From assembly GCF_001995175.1 (NCBI RefSeq), contig NZ_MUKN01000027.1:1-52419 (forward strand): a stretch of DNA of 52,419 bases, in the 5' to 3' direction. The stretch is from Rathayibacter rhapontici (GTDB lineage Bacteria; Actinomycetota; Actinomycetes; Actinomycetales; Microbacteriaceae). Positions 25,808 through 34,639 of this stretch are shown one piece after another. The number at the start of each line of letters is the position of its first letter. The first letter of the stretch is position 1. Under the pieces are notes generated by a model. It had not been told where the DNA came from and made no database searches. It saw only the letters and a list, made by a program, of their open reading frames with translations. The position numbers and the translations under genes are program-made.

Positions 25808-26296
25808 TCACCAGAACATCGTGCCCGGCGCGCCCTTGAAGGGACCGACGACGCGGGACGTGATCCAGCCTCCGTAGAAGTCTCCCGGCTGAGGCTGCAC
25901 CGTCTCCCCGTCGACCGTGCACGAGTCCATCCGCCCCGGGTACACGGCGACGGTGTCCTGCAGCTCCTCGAAGCCGGCCATCGGATCCGGGTACGTCCAG
26001 CCGGCGCTCTCGGCCGTCGCTCCACCGCCGCGCACGCTCACGTACGAGGCCGCCCCCTTGAACTCGCAGACGCTGCGTCCGGGAGCCGGCTCGAGTGCGC
26101 CGTCCGCGAAGGCGGAGCGGGGCAGGTAGTAGACGGGCGGATGGCTGGTCTCGAGGACGCGGAACGACGTGCGGGTCTCGGCGACGACGACTCCGCCGAG
26201 CCGCACGACGACGTGCTCGGAGCTCGGCTCGACCCGCGGCGGCCTCGGGTAGTCCCAGACAAATTCCTGGCCCTCGGCGGGCGGTACGCGCTTCAT
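25808..26296 (-). CDS. DUF427 domain protein
   Basis: The 162-residue protein matches the DUF427 family (small beta-rich proteins of unknown function common in actinobacteria). Recognisable parts are VVVRLGGVVVAETRTSFRVLETSHPPVYYLPRSAFADGALEP, then SVCEFKGAASYVSVRGGG and GWTYPDPMAGFEELQDTVAVYPGRMDSCTVDGE. No signal peptide or membrane segment is seen. The ATG is preceded by TAGCGT, 6 nt and GGAGGG, so it has both a leaderless -10 and a purine-rich stretch. It diverges from the DarT-like gene across a 169 bp gap. Confidence 0.88.
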   Translation of the reverse strand: MKRVPPAEGQEFVWDYPRPPRVEPSSEHVVVRLGGVVVAETRTSFRVLETSHPPVYYLPRSAFADGALEPAPGRSVCEFKGAASYVSVRGGGATAESAGWTYPDPMAGFEELQDTVAVYPGRMDSCTVDGETVQPQPGDFYGGWITSRVVGPFKGAPGTMFW

Positions 26297-26308: not shown

Positions 26309-26465
26309 CGCGCCACCGCTGAGCGGTCCTCCGCCTCCCAGCCGATGCCCGGCGGCTCCGCGTCCCGCGACCGCGGATCACCGCCCCGGCGGCACGACGA
26401 CCCCTCGGTCGCGTAACGTCGTCCTTGCGCCGGACCCCCCGAGACCGCGCGCAGAAGGATCCAGA

Positions 26466-27254
26466 GTGCCCACCGAATGCATCCACGGCCTCGACATCGC
26501 GCTCTGCGACGTCTGCTCCCCCGCCAAGGCTCCCGAGCCCGCGGCCGGGCGCACGCGCACCCCGGCGCGCGTTCCCGGGACCTCCCGCGCGGCCACCGCG
26601 CGAGCGGCGGCGCGAGGAACGGCCCGCGAGAAGCCCCTGCCCAAGGTCGACATCGCCGCTCAGCGCATCTACCACGTCACGCACATCGACAACCTCGCCG
26701 CGATCGTGGCCGCCGGAGCGATCCTGGCCGACGAGCAGCTCCCCGAGCGTCCCGCGATGGACGTCAGCGCCGCGACCACGCGCGAGCACCGCCGTGCCGT
26801 CCAGGTCCGCGACGGAGCGAGCGTCGCCGGCTTCGTCCCCTTCTTCCTCTCTCCCGACGCGGCCCTGTGGGCCGACCTGCGCGGAGAGCGGGTGCTCCCG
26901 CACTGGTCGCCCCGCGCCCACGACACCACGGCGTCGCAGTACGTCGTCCTCGTCGGCTCGCTGGCCTCTGCCCCGGTCCTGAGCGACGGCGACGCGTCGC
27001 ACGTCCTGACCCGCTTCACCGAGGGCGACGCCCTCGTGCGCACCTTCGCGCGCCTGCTCGTCGACGAACCGGCGCTGCGCAGCGCCGAGGCGCTCGTGCC
27101 CGAGCGGTTCCCGCTCGAGGAGATCGCCGTCGTCGGCGTGCCGTCCGTGACGACCCGCAACAAGGTGAAGGCCCTCTTCGAGGGCAGTTCGGCCTCGCCG
27201 CGCGTCGCGGTCTACCCGCCGTGGTTCCACCCGGTCGCCGCCGAGGAGGAGTGA
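26466..27254 (+). CDS. DarT-like (DUF4433) ADP-ribosyltransferase with N-terminal Cys motif
   Basis: This 262-residue protein resembles DarT, which ADP-ribosylates thymidine in single-stranded DNA. Residues 68-77 IYHVTHIDNL match the DarT NAD-binding start. Arg109/110 (EHRRAVQ), VAGFVPFFLSPDAALW (120-135) and the catalytic-Glu motif SAEALVPERFPLEEI (Glu208) follow in the family order. The first 18 residues hold C5-x-H7-x6-C14-x2-C17 (ECIHGLDIALCDVC), a possible small zinc site. A basic low-complexity linker (25-58) separates the two. The GTG start has AGAAGGA 9 nt upstream. No macrodomain antitoxin (DarG) gene is adjacent, so it may be a solo member. Its target is inferred, not shown. Confidence 0.8.
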   Translation: MPTECIHGLDIALCDVCSPAKAPEPAAGRTRTPARVPGTSRAATARAAARGTAREKPLPKVDIAAQRIYHVTHIDNLAAIVAAGAILADEQLPERPAMDVSAATTREHRRAVQVRDGASVAGFVPFFLSPDAALWADLRGERVLPHWSPRAHDTTASQYVVLVGSLASAPVLSDGDASHVLTRFTEGDALVRTFARLLVDEPALRSAEALVPERFPLEEIAVVGVPSVTTRNKVKALFEGSSASPRVAVYPPWFHPVAAEEE

Positions 27255-27261
27255 GCGCGGA

Positions 27262-27786
27262 TCACGTCCCGCTCTGCAGATCGAGGCGCTCCGAGAGGTA
27301 GCGCTCGATCGGCATGAGGCCCTGCTCGCCGAGGCCCGGCGCCCAGCGGACCAGCACCTCCGCGCCCCGCAGGGCGAGCGGCTCCGGATCGGCAGCGAGC
27401 CCGTCGGCGTCCAGCGCGAGCCTCCGCCAGCCGTAGTTGACGATCTCGCCCTCGCGGAACGGCCCGTCGAACGCGGCGCGGCGGATCTCGCGACGCGCCT
27501 CCTGCGACTCCGACTGGTTGTTCGCGTGCAGCGGCGCCACCGCCCGGGTGACCGACCCGACGGCGAAGAGCGAGCCGGTCCTCTCCAGGAGCAGGACGCC
27601 GAGCCGCCAGGCCCTGGTGACCGGAGCCATGACCGGCGCGCGGCGGAAGCCGAGGATCGCCCGGGGCCGGCGCAGCTCGGCGAGGGCCTGATCGGCGACG
27701 CCTCTGCCCTCGAGCTCTGCGACGACCGAGGCGAGCGCCTCCGCGAGTCGCTCGGCGGCATGCGCTGCGTCGGTCGAGTGCGTCAT
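27262..27786 (-). CDS. Conserved protein of unknown function
   Basis: A 174-residue protein that I cannot assign. It has an acidic/Ala-rich helical N-terminus, then RAWRLGVLLLERTGSLFAVGSVTRAVAP, NNQSESQEARREIRRAAFDGPFREGEIVNYGWRRL and VLVRWAPGLGEQGLMPIERYLSERLDL. There are no membrane segments or catalytic motifs known to me. Similar Microbacteriaceae proteins are, to my memory, often labelled 'glutaminase', but I see no glutaminase motif. The ATG at 27786 has GGAGGAGG just upstream, and TAGGCT lies 26 bp upstream as a -10. It converges with the DarT-like gene, 7 bp between stops, and diverges from the adenylate kinase gene. Confidence 0.75.
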   Translation of the reverse strand: MTHSTDAAHAAERLAEALASVVAELEGRGVADQALAELRRPRAILGFRRAPVMAPVTRAWRLGVLLLERTGSLFAVGSVTRAVAPLHANNQSESQEARREIRRAAFDGPFREGEIVNYGWRRLALDADGLAADPEPLALRGAEVLVRWAPGLGEQGLMPIERYLSERLDLQSGT

Positions 27787-30636: not shown

Positions 30637-30680
30637 CTACTCGGCCAGTAGCTCGCGGCTACTCGGCCAGCAGCTCGCGC
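30637..30680 (-). repeat. 22 bp tandem duplication at the SNF2 gene end
   Basis: CTACTCGGCCAG(T/C)AGCTCGCG(G/C) occurs twice in direct succession (30637-30658 and 30659-30680). The right copy encodes the last RELLAE and stop; the left copy repeats them out of frame after the stop. Confidence 0.8.
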
Positions 30681-33600
30681 ACGTCGTCGGCCGTCAGCGC
30701 CTGCGCGAACAGCTCGCCGTCGTCCAGGACGGCGGCGCCGAGCCGTGCCTTGCGCTCCTTCAGCCGCACGATCTTCTCCTCGATCGTGTCGAGGGCGACC
30801 AGCCGGTAGACGTTGACCCGGCGCTGCTGCCCGATGCGGTGCGCCCGGTCGACGGCCTGGGCCTCGGCCGCCGGGTTCCACCAGGGGTCCAGGATGAAGA
30901 CGTGGTCCGCCTCCGTGAGGGTGAGGCCCGTCCCGCCCGCCTTCAGGCTGATGAGGAACACCGGCGCGTCGCCCGAGCGGAACGACTCGACGACTCCCGC
31001 CCGGTCGCGCGTCGACCCGTCGAGCTGCACGAACGGCACCCCGCGCGCCCGCAGCCGCTCCGCCGCCCGCTCGAGGTAGGACGTGAAGGTGCTGAACACG
31101 AGCGCGCGCCGGCCCTCGGCCAGCACGTCGTCGAGCTGCTCCACCAGAGCGTCGAGCTTGGCCGAGGGCACGTGCCGGTACGAGGAGTCGACCAGGGAGG
31201 CGTCCAGCGCCAGCATCCGCAGGAGGGTGAGCGAGCGGAAGACGGTGAACCGCTGCCGGTCGAGGTCCTCGACGAGTCCCAGCAGCTTGCGCCGCTCGCG
31301 CTGGAGGTAGCCGTCGTACAGCACGCGGTGGGCCGGCGCGAGCGTCACCTCGATCGTCTGCTCCTGCTTCTCGGGCAGATCGGGCGCGACCGCCTCCTTC
31401 GTCCGGCGCAGGAGGAACGGACGCACGCGTCGGCGCAGGCGCTCGAGCCGGCGGCGGGCCCCCTCCTCCTGCGAGACGGTCCTGCCCTCGGAGAGGTCGG
31501 GCGACGCGATGCCGAGCGGCGCCTCCGCGTGCTGGATCGGCCGGGTGTACTCCTCCTGGAACCGGCGCAGCGGCGGCAGGAGGCCGGGCGCCGTCAGAGC
31601 GAGGATCGCCCAGAGCTCGTCGAGCGAGTTCTCGAGCGGAGTGCCGGTCAGCGCGAGCACGATCGGCGCGCCGAGGGAGCGAGCCGCGCGGTGGGTCTGC
31701 GACGCGGGGTTCTTGACGAACTGGGCCTCGTCGAGGACCAGGGCGGACCAGGTCCGCCCCGCCCACTCCTCGGCGGCCAGGCGCAGGACGGCGTAGCTGG
31801 TCAGCACGAGATCGGCGTCGTCGGGGATGCCCGCGACTCCGGTCCGCGTGCTCGAGACCGTGTGCACCCGCAGCCCGGGGGCGAAGCGCGCCGCCTCGGA
31901 CGCCCAGCCCGGCACCACCGAGGTCGGTGCGACCACGAGGAACGGCGCGCACCGCTCCCCCGATGCGTGCGCCTGCTCGACGGCCTCCAGCATCATCGCG
32001 AGCGCCTGCAGCGTCTTGCCGAGGCCCATGTCGTCGGCGAGGATCCCGCCGAGGCCGTGCCGCCGGCGGTGGGCGAGCCACGAGTACCCCTCCTGCTGAT
32101 AGGGACGGAGCTCGGCGAGCAGGCCCGCCGGAGCGGCGACCTCGCCCGGCACCCCCGCGGCCAGCGCCTGCCGCAGGACCTGCCGCCACGCGTCCGAGGC
32201 GACGCTCTCGTCGGCGAGCTCCTCCAGTTCCTCCCACAGCGCCGTCTGGTGGCGGCCGAGCCGCGGCCCCGTCTCCCACTCGTCGAGCTGATCTGCGCGG
32301 TTTAGCAGCTCGCGCAGACGGTCGAGCCCGGGGTGGGCGAGCGAGAGGTAGGAGTGGTCGACGAGCCGGATGCGGTCGCCCCCGGCCGAGAGCGCGCGGA
32401 ACAGCGGGAGGAACGGCACGCTCACGTCGCCGATCCGCACGACGACGGCGAGGTCGAACCAGTCCGCATCCGCGGTGTCGACGGCGGTCACCGTGAGGGT
32501 GAGGTCGCCGTTCAGGAGGCGGTAGTCGGGCGGGACGCCCTCGCGCTCCACCCGCACCCCGCCGACCTCCTCGAGACGCGGCAGGTGTTCGACGACGAAC
32601 ACCGCGGCGTCCGCTCCGCGCAGGAGCACCCCGGCGGCGAGGTCGGGGACGACCGGGGATCCGGCGTCGGCGAGCACGGTGGTCGCGCGCCGCAGGATCG
32701 CCGCCTCGACGAACCCCGTGCCCCCTCCTCCGTCGATCTCGCTCGATCGATCGGCGCTGCGCCGCCAGCGCCAGCCCACCCGCACCGCGCGGCGGGGCTC
32801 GAAGGACACCGTGCAGACCAGCCTCGGCGGCTCCGGCTCGTCGATCTCGACGCCCGGTCCGCTCGGCCGGACGGCGACCCGCCCGCGCAGGCCGGGGAGG
32901 TGGTCGCGGAGGAACTCGGCGACGTCCTCCTCGGGCACGCTCGTCTCCTCCGGGTGCCGGAGCAGCCGCAGCTCCTCCTCCTCCAGCGCAGCGGCGGCGG
33001 GCGCGAGGAGCAGCGCGGCCGGATCCCCGCCCTCGACGACGTAGACGCCGTGGCGCGCGACAGGGCGCACCTCGTCGAGCGGCCGGTCCTCCTCGCCGAG
33101 CCGGAGGACCGGCCGCAGCTCGAGCGCTCCGGACCGGTCGGTCGCGAGGAGCGCGACGTGCGCCGCGGAGCCGAGGCGGACGGCGCGGCGGTCCGGCGCG
33201 AGGAGGGGGATCCCGAGGGCGGGGGCCTGCTCGAGCAGGCGCCAGAGCAGCGGGCTCTCGTAGTCGTCGAGGTGGATCCAGTCGGGGTCCTGCCCCAGGT
33301 GCACGGTCCGAGTCGCGCGGTGCAGCGCGGCGAACTCCGCGAACCAGCGCTGATGCGCGGGATCGAGCGAGAGGCGGTGGGTCTGGAAGTTCAGCGACTT
33401 CCAGGTGAGCGTCGAGCGGTTCCACGCCCCGCCGCGCCCCGGGACCACGGGCCGGGTGGCGAGCCGGTGGTCGTCGCGGGCGGCGGGGTCGTAGTCCTTC
33501 GGTCCGACGCGCTCGCTCGTCGGCGCCCGCCACGGATCGTCGGCACGTCGCACGAGGCGGCGCAGCTCGAACTGCAGGCCGATCGGGGTGAGCGGGCCGG

Positions 33601-33682
33601 CGACCGCGTCCGGCCGCTCCTCCGAGCCGCTGAGCTCGCCGAGACGGGCGCGCCAAGCGGACGGGAGCGGTTCGGAGGGCAT
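30659..33682 (-). CDS. SNF2-family DEAD/DEAH-box helicase
   Basis: This 1007-residue ATP-dependent DNA translocase is of the bacterial SNF2/HepA type. The N-terminal ~500 residues are a family-typical accessory region. Walker A (ILADDMGLGKTLQA) is near residue 550, VLDEAQFVKNP near 650, followed by LALTGTPLENSLDELWAIL. The second RecA domain shows LVFSTFTSYLERAA, ISLKAGGTGLTLTEADHVFILDPWWNPAAEAQAVDRAHRIGQ near 940 and DTIEEKIVRLKERK. It probably remodels DNA-protein complexes; the exact role is unknown. The ATG at 33682 has GGGAG about 11 nt upstream. It diverges from the epimerase gene by 75 bp. The end of the gene is tandemly duplicated. Confidence 0.93.
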   Translation of the reverse strand: MPSEPLPSAWRARLGELSGSEERPDAVAGPLTPIGLQFELRRLVRRADDPWRAPTSERVGPKDYDPAARDDHRLATRPVVPGRGGAWNRSTLTWKSLNFQTHRLSLDPAHQRWFAEFAALHRATRTVHLGQDPDWIHLDDYESPLLWRLLEQAPALGIPLLAPDRRAVRLGSAAHVALLATDRSGALELRPVLRLGEEDRPLDEVRPVARHGVYVVEGGDPAALLLAPAAAALEEEELRLLRHPEETSVPEEDVAEFLRDHLPGLRGRVAVRPSGPGVEIDEPEPPRLVCTVSFEPRRAVRVGWRWRRSADRSSEIDGGGGTGFVEAAILRRATTVLADAGSPVVPDLAAGVLLRGADAAVFVVEHLPRLEEVGGVRVEREGVPPDYRLLNGDLTLTVTAVDTADADWFDLAVVVRIGDVSVPFLPLFRALSAGGDRIRLVDHSYLSLAHPGLDRLRELLNRADQLDEWETGPRLGRHQTALWEELEELADESVASDAWRQVLRQALAAGVPGEVAAPAGLLAELRPYQQEGYSWLAHRRRHGLGGILADDMGLGKTLQALAMMLEAVEQAHASGERCAPFLVVAPTSVVPGWASEAARFAPGLRVHTVSSTRTGVAGIPDDADLVLTSYAVLRLAAEEWAGRTWSALVLDEAQFVKNPASQTHRAARSLGAPIVLALTGTPLENSLDELWAILALTAPGLLPPLRRFQEEYTRPIQHAEAPLGIASPDLSEGRTVSQEEGARRRLERLRRRVRPFLLRRTKEAVAPDLPEKQEQTIEVTLAPAHRVLYDGYLQRERRKLLGLVEDLDRQRFTVFRSLTLLRMLALDASLVDSSYRHVPSAKLDALVEQLDDVLAEGRRALVFSTFTSYLERAAERLRARGVPFVQLDGSTRDRAGVVESFRSGDAPVFLISLKAGGTGLTLTEADHVFILDPWWNPAAEAQAVDRAHRIGQQRRVNVYRLVALDTIEEKIVRLKERKARLGAAVLDDGELFAQALTADDVRELLAE

Positions 33683-33757
33683 CTCTCCATGCTCCCACGG
33701 CCCTCCGACACGCTCGCCGGTCCCCCGCGGGGCGGCTGCGGCGAGGAGAATCGGCGC

Positions 33758-34639
33758 ATGACCACGAGCGACTCCCCCACCCCCGTCCGCCTCGAGATCG
33801 GGAGCGACGAGCTCCGCGTCTCCGTCACCACGGCCGGAGCCGAGCTCACCTCGCTGCGCGACGCCGCGGGGCTCGAGTACCTCTGGCAGGCGGGCCCCGA
33901 GTGGCGGAGGCACGCCCCCGTCCTGTTCCCGATCATCGGCCGCCTGCCCGACGACACCCTCCACCACGACGGAGTCGCCTACCCGATGGGACAGCACGGC
34001 TTCGCCCGCGACCGGGCGTTCGAGCTCGCGGGCGCCTCGGGCGACGAGGCCGTGCTCCGGCTCCGCAGCGACGCCGCGACCCGCGAGGTCTTCCCGTTCG
34101 ACTGGACCCTCCTCGTCGCCTACTCCGTCACCGGATCGACGCTGCGCATCACGCAGACCGTCGAGAACCGCGGAACCGGGCCGCTGGGCGCGTCGGTGGG
34201 CAACCACCCGGCGTTCGCGCTGCCGCTCCCCGGCGGCGGCGGCGAGCACCGCATCCGCTTCGCCGAGGAGGAGCCCGAGGGCTTCCGTCGCGCGCCGGGC
34301 AACCTGCTCGCCGAGCCGCGCTTCCCCTCGCCGCTCGTGGACGGCGCCCTCGTCGTCGACGACGCCTGGTTCGAGCAGGACGCGGTGATCTTCGACACGC
34401 CGAGGCGACGCGTGATGACCCTCGAGGCCGACGGTGCCCGATCGATCACCGTCGATGCGGGCGACTTCGACGTCGTCGGGATCTGGAAGCCGGTCGGCGC
34501 GCCGTTCGTCTGCATCGAGCCCTGGCGCAGCATCCCCACTCCGGCGGGCTGGAACGGCGACATCGTCGACAAGCCCGGGCAGTTCGTGCTGGCTCCGGGC
34601 GAGCAGAAGACGTTCTCCTACAGCATCGCGCTCAGCTGA
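33758..34639 (+). CDS. Aldose 1-epimerase-family protein
   Basis: The 293-residue protein has the galactose mutarotase-like beta-sandwich fold. Motifs are AELTSLRDAAGLEYLWQAGPEWRRHAPVLFPIIGRL, the catalytic-His stretch YPMGQHGFARDRAFEL, VGNHPAFALPL with a second His, and CIEPWRSIPTP with the catalytic Glu near the C-terminus. It resembles the LacX/YeaD-like group that may act on glucose 6-phosphate or free sugars. The ATG has GAGGAGAA 8 nt upstream. Its 3' end overlaps that of the convergent ppx-like gene by 22 bp, so the two transcripts are antisense at their ends. Confidence 0.9.
   Translation: MTTSDSPTPVRLEIGSDELRVSVTTAGAELTSLRDAAGLEYLWQAGPEWRRHAPVLFPIIGRLPDDTLHHDGVAYPMGQHGFARDRAFELAGASGDEAVLRLRSDAATREVFPFDWTLLVAYSVTGSTLRITQTVENRGTGPLGASVGNHPAFALPLPGGGGEHRIRFAEEEPEGFRRAPGNLLAEPRFPSPLVDGALVVDDAWFEQDAVIFDTPRRRVMTLEADGARSITVDAGDFDVVGIWKPVGAPFVCIEPWRSIPTPAGWNGDIVDKPGQFVLAPGEQKTFSYSIALS

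Follow-up and report, generated by a model that had tools for sequence, protein, structure and literature searches.

The gene at positions 26466 to 27254 of a Rathayibacter rhapontici contig encodes a protein whose predicted fold is that of the toxin DarT2, and it belongs to a branch of DarT-like proteins that is widespread in the family Microbacteriaceae and has no DarG antitoxin gene beside it. The stretch analyzed, called the window here, is 52,419 nucleotides long and is contig 27 of a 136-contig genome. The reading that we prefer, at a probability of roughly 0.46, is that the product is an antitoxin-independent, vertically inherited, putative ADP-ribosyltransferase whose acceptor differs from the thymidine in single-stranded DNA (ssDNA) that DarT modifies. 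We consider it sound to describe the gene not as a toxin bereft of its antidote but as one member of a widespread, mainly vertically inherited group within the DarT fold that has no antidote and whose target site is rebuilt. The gene is laid out as follows:

26453..26459, + strand: Shine-Dalgarno-like AGAAGGA, identical in 8/8 aligned Rathayibacter sequences
26466..27254, + strand: DarT-like ADP-ribosyltransferase gene, 262 amino acids, GTG start
26664..27230, + strand: predicted ADP-ribosyltransferase domain, residues 67 to 255

This is a real, conserved open reading frame (ORF). Its product matches the Pfam DarT family (PF14487) over residues 69 to 254 (E = 1.3e-18, 67.9 bits against a curated cut-off of 22.5) and also the PADLOC DarT model (E = 1.6e-20); with NF048013, the NCBIfam equivalog for the DarT toxin, it scores 66.3 bits, below the 150-bit cut-off of that model. 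PF14487 is also matched at E 0.01 or better by all 54 rows of an alignment of the branch, which holds the window protein and 53 of 80 named loci, near-duplicates and the frame-broken Rathayibacter tanaceti copy (L037) being left out. The predicted fold agrees with that of DarT2 in a comparison that re-ranked the list returned by Foldseek, and families outside that list could be missed. A chance resemblance to DarT is ruled out by the Pfam match and the fold comparison. The closest named relative, from Rathayibacter sp. SD072, is 98% identical. The original prediction, made from the letters of the window, had proposed a DarT-like ADP-ribosyltransferase without DarG, and this was borne out, since the predicted ADP-ribosyltransferase fold came out as DarT's. 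The DarT motifs that it listed (IYHVTHIDNL, RR at 109 and 110, VPFF, and SAEALVPE with Glu208) are all in the ORF, and both arginines of the pair are present here; only the first, R109, is well conserved in relatives.

A profile search found the gene in 127 of 249 Microbacteriaceae genomes and 44 of 85 genera, two of these carriers (G032 and G135) having partial matches only. All 14 other members of the genus that were examined have it, with a broken frame in one, and each carrier has it at a single locus, a few split or partial matches excepted. In a sample of 396 genomes from the phylum, a whole-length match was found in 3, all of them Microbacteriaceae, and the other 12 matches were partial. 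The named loci are the best 80 of 215 and were found with sequence patterns over two of the stretches that were later counted; a smaller alignment of 23 rows holds the window and 22 of 25 matched relatives, leaving out one frame-broken and two partial sequences. The R. tanaceti copy (L037, L016/L030) is split into two frames near its 3' end, and in one strain of Lacisediminihabitans changchengi, equal-score matches lie on two scaffolds (L053 and L054), indicating either duplication or assembly redundancy. A literature search found no published description of an antitoxin-free DarT branch in Microbacteriaceae.

The absence of an antitoxin gene was examined with a DarG profile built from 14 macrodomains, each of which, when left out, was recovered at 2.3e-34 or better. 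This profile found no DarG in the window or in the loci of the 80 named relatives (0.95 Mb, best E 9.1), and none at E <1 around all 127 carriers (~1.5 to 2.5 kb on each side, contig permitting). As a control, a macrodomain lies within 400 bp of DarT in 14 of 18 actinobacterial genomes outside the family that have a Pfam DarT; in the remaining four genomes, the DarT is either incomplete (two) or very divergent (two). Very divergent DarT-like proteins without a nearby macrodomain were seen in other Actinomycetota (L170 and L171), with TTNN in place of DGN/DGH, possibly representing another antitoxin-free branch.

Other families that remove ADP-ribose were then considered on the scale of whole genomes. 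The genome of the window has one DarT and one macrodomain, the latter on another contig (contig 64, L002 1501-1853), where it is split between two frames by an assembly error or as a pseudogene; we take it to be MacroD-like from its GGGGVDGAIHRA motif, and the piece tested scores 0.0 bits with the DarG profile and is not DarG-like. ADP-ribosylhydrolases (ARH) occur in 95 of the 249 family genomes, with none in the genome of the window or in four other sampled members of its genus, and NADAR, the antitoxin family of DarTG1, occurs in only 1 of 249, which is not the genome of the window. No macrodomain match was obtained in the genomes of 77 of the 127 carriers, and in the 16 carriers whose DarT-like gene shares a contig with a macrodomain gene, the two are never closer than 29,966 bp. 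All three families are missing in 38 of 127 carriers, at least 10 of which are single-contig genomes, including G002 of the same genus as the window. The orphan state of the gene is not an assembly loss: loss of a DarG in this way is ruled out by the lack of DarG beside the 127 carriers and by the single-contig genomes without the three families. Hence, the claim that no macrodomain antitoxin gene adjoins this gene stands, the full-genome search proposed with it returned one DarT and one unlinked macrodomain, and the DarG homolog in relatives that would have spoken against it was found beside none of the 80 named loci or 127 carriers. The further argument that such a toxin could not be kept unopposed is weakened, both by the single-contig genomes without the three known ADP-ribose-removing families and by changes on the acceptor side of the enzyme, given which the protein may not be the same toxin as DarT at all. 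Overall, the original interpretation is supported in part.

Judged by sequence, the active site across the branch has for the most part retained its NAD side and has a rebuilt acceptor side. Residue counts were made in 121 full-length sequences from the 127 carriers, leaving out partial or split ones (L028, L265-L269); equivalences were drawn from alignments, not from superposed coordinates, and the roles of DarT residues are those given in excerpts of PMC9967889, PMC11281641 and PMC11543638. Three codons are central:

26790..26792, + strand: R109, equivalent by alignment to R51 of Thermus DarT (role from the excerpt of PMC9967889)
26991..26993, + strand: D176, base-holding position (H119 in DarT2, N104 in DarT1; role from the excerpt of PMC11543638)
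27087..27089, + strand: E208, putative catalytic glutamate, equivalent to E160, in 121/121

H13, T15, N19, R51 and E160 of DarT2 align with H70, T72, N76, R109 and E208 of the window protein, which are kept in 120, 119, 116, 119 and 121 of the carriers, respectively. At position 176 the carriers have Asp in 112, Tyr in 3, Pro in 2, and Glu, Ala, Val and Asn in 1 each, with His in none; the base-holding His or Asn of DarT is thus gone in 120 of 121, compared with Asn in 12 and His in 5 of the 17 canonical rows that are readable there (unreadable rows were skipped at the position concerned). Asp176 looks invariant in both the 23- and 54-row alignments, as do the NAD contacts in the latter, whose loci were selected by sequence patterns covering two of these stretches; among the carriers found by profile, Asp falls to 112 of 121. 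Position 134 (M78 in DarT2, Leu134 here) is Met in 4 of 121 carriers versus 13 of 17 canonical rows, and the adjoining Trp135 is present in all 121. The stretch from residue 184 to the catalytic Glu has 22 to 28 residues in 119 of 121 carriers (37 and 40 in the other two) and 31 to 41 in 16 complete canonical rows, the truncated rows L162 and L168 being left out, so the substrate loop is shorter in those 119. An acceptor other than thymidine is suggested because the base-holding residue and the DNA-carrying loop both differ. According to the excerpt of PMC11543638, Ala at the base-holding residue, Met or Arg inactivates DarT1, and the branch should therefore not carry out DarT's own reaction in DarT's way.

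A tree built from the 54 branch rows and 11 canonical actinobacterial DarTs puts the former on one side with a support of 100 in the Shimodaira-Hasegawa-like approximate likelihood ratio test (SH-aLRT, a quick method). Genus labels cluster in the tree, requiring 21 changes compared to a shuffled mean of 42.7, which supports mainly vertical descent. No sequence match was obtained among plasmids, phages or viral contigs, and a phage origin was rejected, given this negative result and the poor superposition of the fold matches in BFVD. The ratio of nonsynonymous to synonymous substitution rates (dN/dS) across 12 Rathayibacter sequences, taken from 12 of 15 genus genomes, is 0.20 in the N-terminal Cys/His motif, a value based on few sites, 0.135 in the linker that follows it, and 0.17 in the enzyme domain, showing purifying selection on the gene in Rathayibacter at the codon level.

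The N-terminal part sets the branch apart from the classic toxin, and both of its elements, which the original prediction had described as added parts, were confirmed:

26478..26516, + strand: codons of C5-x-H7-x6-C14-x2-C17, putative zinc knuckle
26526..26639, + strand: basic, disordered linker, residues 21 to 58

All 121 full-length carriers have C5, H7, C14 and C17, which makes the motif less variable than the active site and shows that it is not due to chance; the four conserved ligands of a zinc knuckle are all there, making it a putative metal site. Structure prediction gave a confidence of ~69 to 74 over the motif and a predicted local distance difference test (pLDDT) score of <50 for residues 24 to 52. 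The linker is basic in all rows of the 54-row alignment, with a net charge of +2 to +10 and a median of +6. Two further small ORFs, both on the minus strand, begin with the same N-terminus, ECxHG-x5-C-x2-C, but carry different C-terminal parts, and neither matches Pfam; L175 comes from another genome of the Microbacteriaceae, and L152/L176 lies close to an integrase-like ORF of an actinobacterium that is less closely related. From these sequences, the Cys/His signature looks like a portable module.

A short conserved element precedes the gene:

26412..26419, + strand: CGTAACGT, 54 nucleotides before the GTG start

An exact copy stands in 44 of the 81 regions upstream of the gene in the 80 named loci and the window, ~53 to 85 nucleotides before a conserved Glu codon, and these 44 regions represent nine named genera plus several members of the family that are unplaced. 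Forty-four of the 53 copies of CGTAACGT in those loci are at the DarT-like gene; none of the other nine precedes a ribosome-binding site and ORF, where chance alone would place only about one of the nine. For the looser pattern CGTA[ACG]CGT, 60 of 119 copies are at the DarT-like gene. Among profile-found carriers, 40 of 125 have the exact element and 63 of 125 have CGTAnCGT, and in 0.65 Mb around carriers 63 of 101 copies of CGTAnCGT are upstream of the DarT-like gene. One of the nulls for the element is inflated because its random stretches could include true sites. Two possible roles for the element are an operator and a constrained -10 region, in which case the TAnnnT core could be the -10 box. 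A general promoter was rejected, since other ORFs are not preceded by CGTA[ACG]CGT more often than random positions are (8/59 versus 650/4860, the latter counted by a slightly different rule), and so was SOS control, the 81 upstream regions having no LexA-like motif and a single degenerate RecA-NDp-like one.

In the mechanism that we propose, an NAD-dependent ADP-ribosyltransferase of the DarT2 fold, chromosomal in about half of Microbacteriaceae genomes, would work without a cognate antitoxin. The enzyme would bind NAD as DarT does, cleave it with R109 and E208, and pass the ADP-ribose to an acceptor other than the thymidine of a TNTC-like ssDNA site. The Asp at 176 could accept hydrogen bonds from the amino group of a base, e.g., that of guanine, and the Cys/His knuckle and basic linker may guide the enzyme toward nucleic acid or a partner. 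It would be tolerated through a restricted acceptor or restricted expression, not through an antidote.

Several observations weigh against this reading. Residue 176 varies across the branch, a pattern that suits loss of the former contact with the base more than the gain of a single, fixed new specificity, and position 127 (Y71 in DarT2, at the nicotinamide site; Phe127 here) is often non-aromatic (F 55, S 27, Y 12, A 12 and other residues 15 among 121), suggesting that catalysis may be weak. The catalytic Arg is missing in two carriers, replaced by Ile in L262 and Val in L264, and another, L270, lacks the His, Thr and Asn contacts to NAD. Roughly half of the carriers do not have the upstream element. 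Some transfer is possible, because four of the eight named genera represented by at least two rows fail to form a single clade and need two changes in the tree. Finally, a macrodomain anywhere in the genome is commoner in carriers than in non-carriers (50/127 versus 25/122, odds ratio 2.5), as is an ARH (58/127 versus 37/122, odds ratio 1.9); from these associations, which are uncorrected for kinship, help in trans is possible. L262 and L264 (G170 and G108) also both have Pro at the base-holding position and possibly form a sub-branch that lost activity.

These points lend themselves to other explanations. The protein could be a dormant antiphage effector, a DarT acting on nucleic acid that is kept inactive through its knuckle and linker, or through tight transcription, until it is freed on infection, needing no antitoxin in uninfected cells. 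DarTG is a phage defense system in the published literature, the PADLOC match and the near-constant catalytic Glu and Arg would suit an active effector, and the upstream element hints at control. We nevertheless consider this explanation unlikely: the gene occurs in every genus member examined and roughly half of the family, with one locus per genome and no match among the plasmids and phages searched, its base-holding residue and loop are changed, and its 22 compared loci have no shared mobile or defense neighbor, with housekeeping-like neighbors in most relatives inspected. An ordinary DarT toxin neutralized in trans by a macrodomain, an ARH or another antitoxin gene elsewhere would account for the associations above, and the genome of the window does have one macrodomain gene; that gene, however, is split and not DarG-like in the piece tested, no macrodomain is found in G002, a single-contig genome from the genus of the window, and the many carriers without a macrodomain or without all three families, together with the distance of nearly 30 kb or more on shared contigs, make it improbable.

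A degenerate or non-catalytic descendant, comprising the whole branch or part of it and merely binding NAD, ADP-ribose or nucleic acid, would explain the unconserved Y71 and M78 equivalents, the variable base-holding residue, the copies without the catalytic Arg or the NAD contacts, and the broken copy in one genus member. The catalytic Glu in every full-length carrier, the Arg in 119 of 121 and the dN/dS of 0.17 in Rathayibacter argue the other way, and we hold this to be quite improbable. Least probable by far is a secreted toxin that acts on neighboring cells or hosts and makes self-protection needless: a predicted flexible basic region does stand ahead of the enzyme domain, but the protein opens with the Cys/His motif, and a charged linker comes next, with no signal-like hydrophobic stretch visible by eye (no signal-peptide program was run), and no adjoining partner gene is common across genera. 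The preferred reading, an antitoxin-independent transferase with a changed acceptor, can be extended to a third type of DarT that is non-toxic, antitoxin-free and chromosomal, with an acceptor that is neither the thymidine of DarT2 nor the ssDNA guanine of DarT1, a rebuilt base site and short loop, a knuckle to aim it and its own conserved element; this stronger proposal is rather doubtful as a whole. If true, it would mean that bacteria have a standing ADP-ribosylation, of nucleic acid or of a nucleotide, for which there is no dedicated eraser. If the enzyme is active, it would represent a standing, non-toxin use of DarT chemistry in bacteria, and the branch is a natural test of which DarT residues make toxicity and which set the target.

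The direct neighbors of the gene in the window are as the original prediction described them:

25808..26296, - strand: DUF427 gene (PF04248, Pfam), divergent neighbor
27262..27786, - strand: convergent neighbor, 174 amino acids, not a conserved partner

The product of the convergent gene has no match in Pfam, NCBIfam or PADLOC, and its best E value in PHROGs is 0.21. The proposal that it might be a partner was not supported, and as an antitoxin it was rejected, since its cluster adjoins the DarT-like gene in 6 of 22 loci, all in the GTDB genus of the window. No neighbor is common to all 22 loci compared and no mobile or defense gene is a shared one; related genera have neighbor blocks in common (Frondihabitans with Curtobacterium, Lacisediminihabitans with Salinibacterium), and 12 of 14 relatives inspected have housekeeping-like neighbors by rough gene calls, with few neighbors recognized by eye. 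An SNF2-type helicase gene (window 30659-34249, - strand) lies within ~4.5 kb downstream in 7 of 22 loci, from the genus of the window and two Lacisediminihabitans, and is the sole loose link across genera beyond the nearest kin.

Compared to known systems, the branch appears closest to DarT2. It appears to share the fold of the enzymes from Thermus sp. 2.9 and Mycobacterium tuberculosis (PDB 7omv and 7yk3) and, in nearly all members, the same H-T-N contacts and the equivalents of R51 and E160. It differs from DarT2 and DarTG2 in having no DarG, in the replacement of the base-holding His/Asn (by Asp in the window protein, where H119 of DarT2 is Asn in the M. tuberculosis and Thermosipho sequences), in a shorter substrate loop, in nearly always lacking the Met of the oxocarbenium pocket, in its added Cys/His motif and basic linker, and in being carried in chromosomes across a bacterial family. 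E. coli C7 DarT1 of DarTG1 (PDB 8baq), whose Asn104 corresponds to Asp here, appears more distant than DarT2. DarT itself could not be cloned by conventional means, being toxic, according to the excerpt of PMC5179494. Streptomyces coelicolor SCO6735, described in the excerpt of PMC9411070, typifies a stand-alone, DarG-like macrodomain hydrolase without a known DarT partner, and the branch described here is its mirror case, a lone putative transferase from which the hydrolase is missing.
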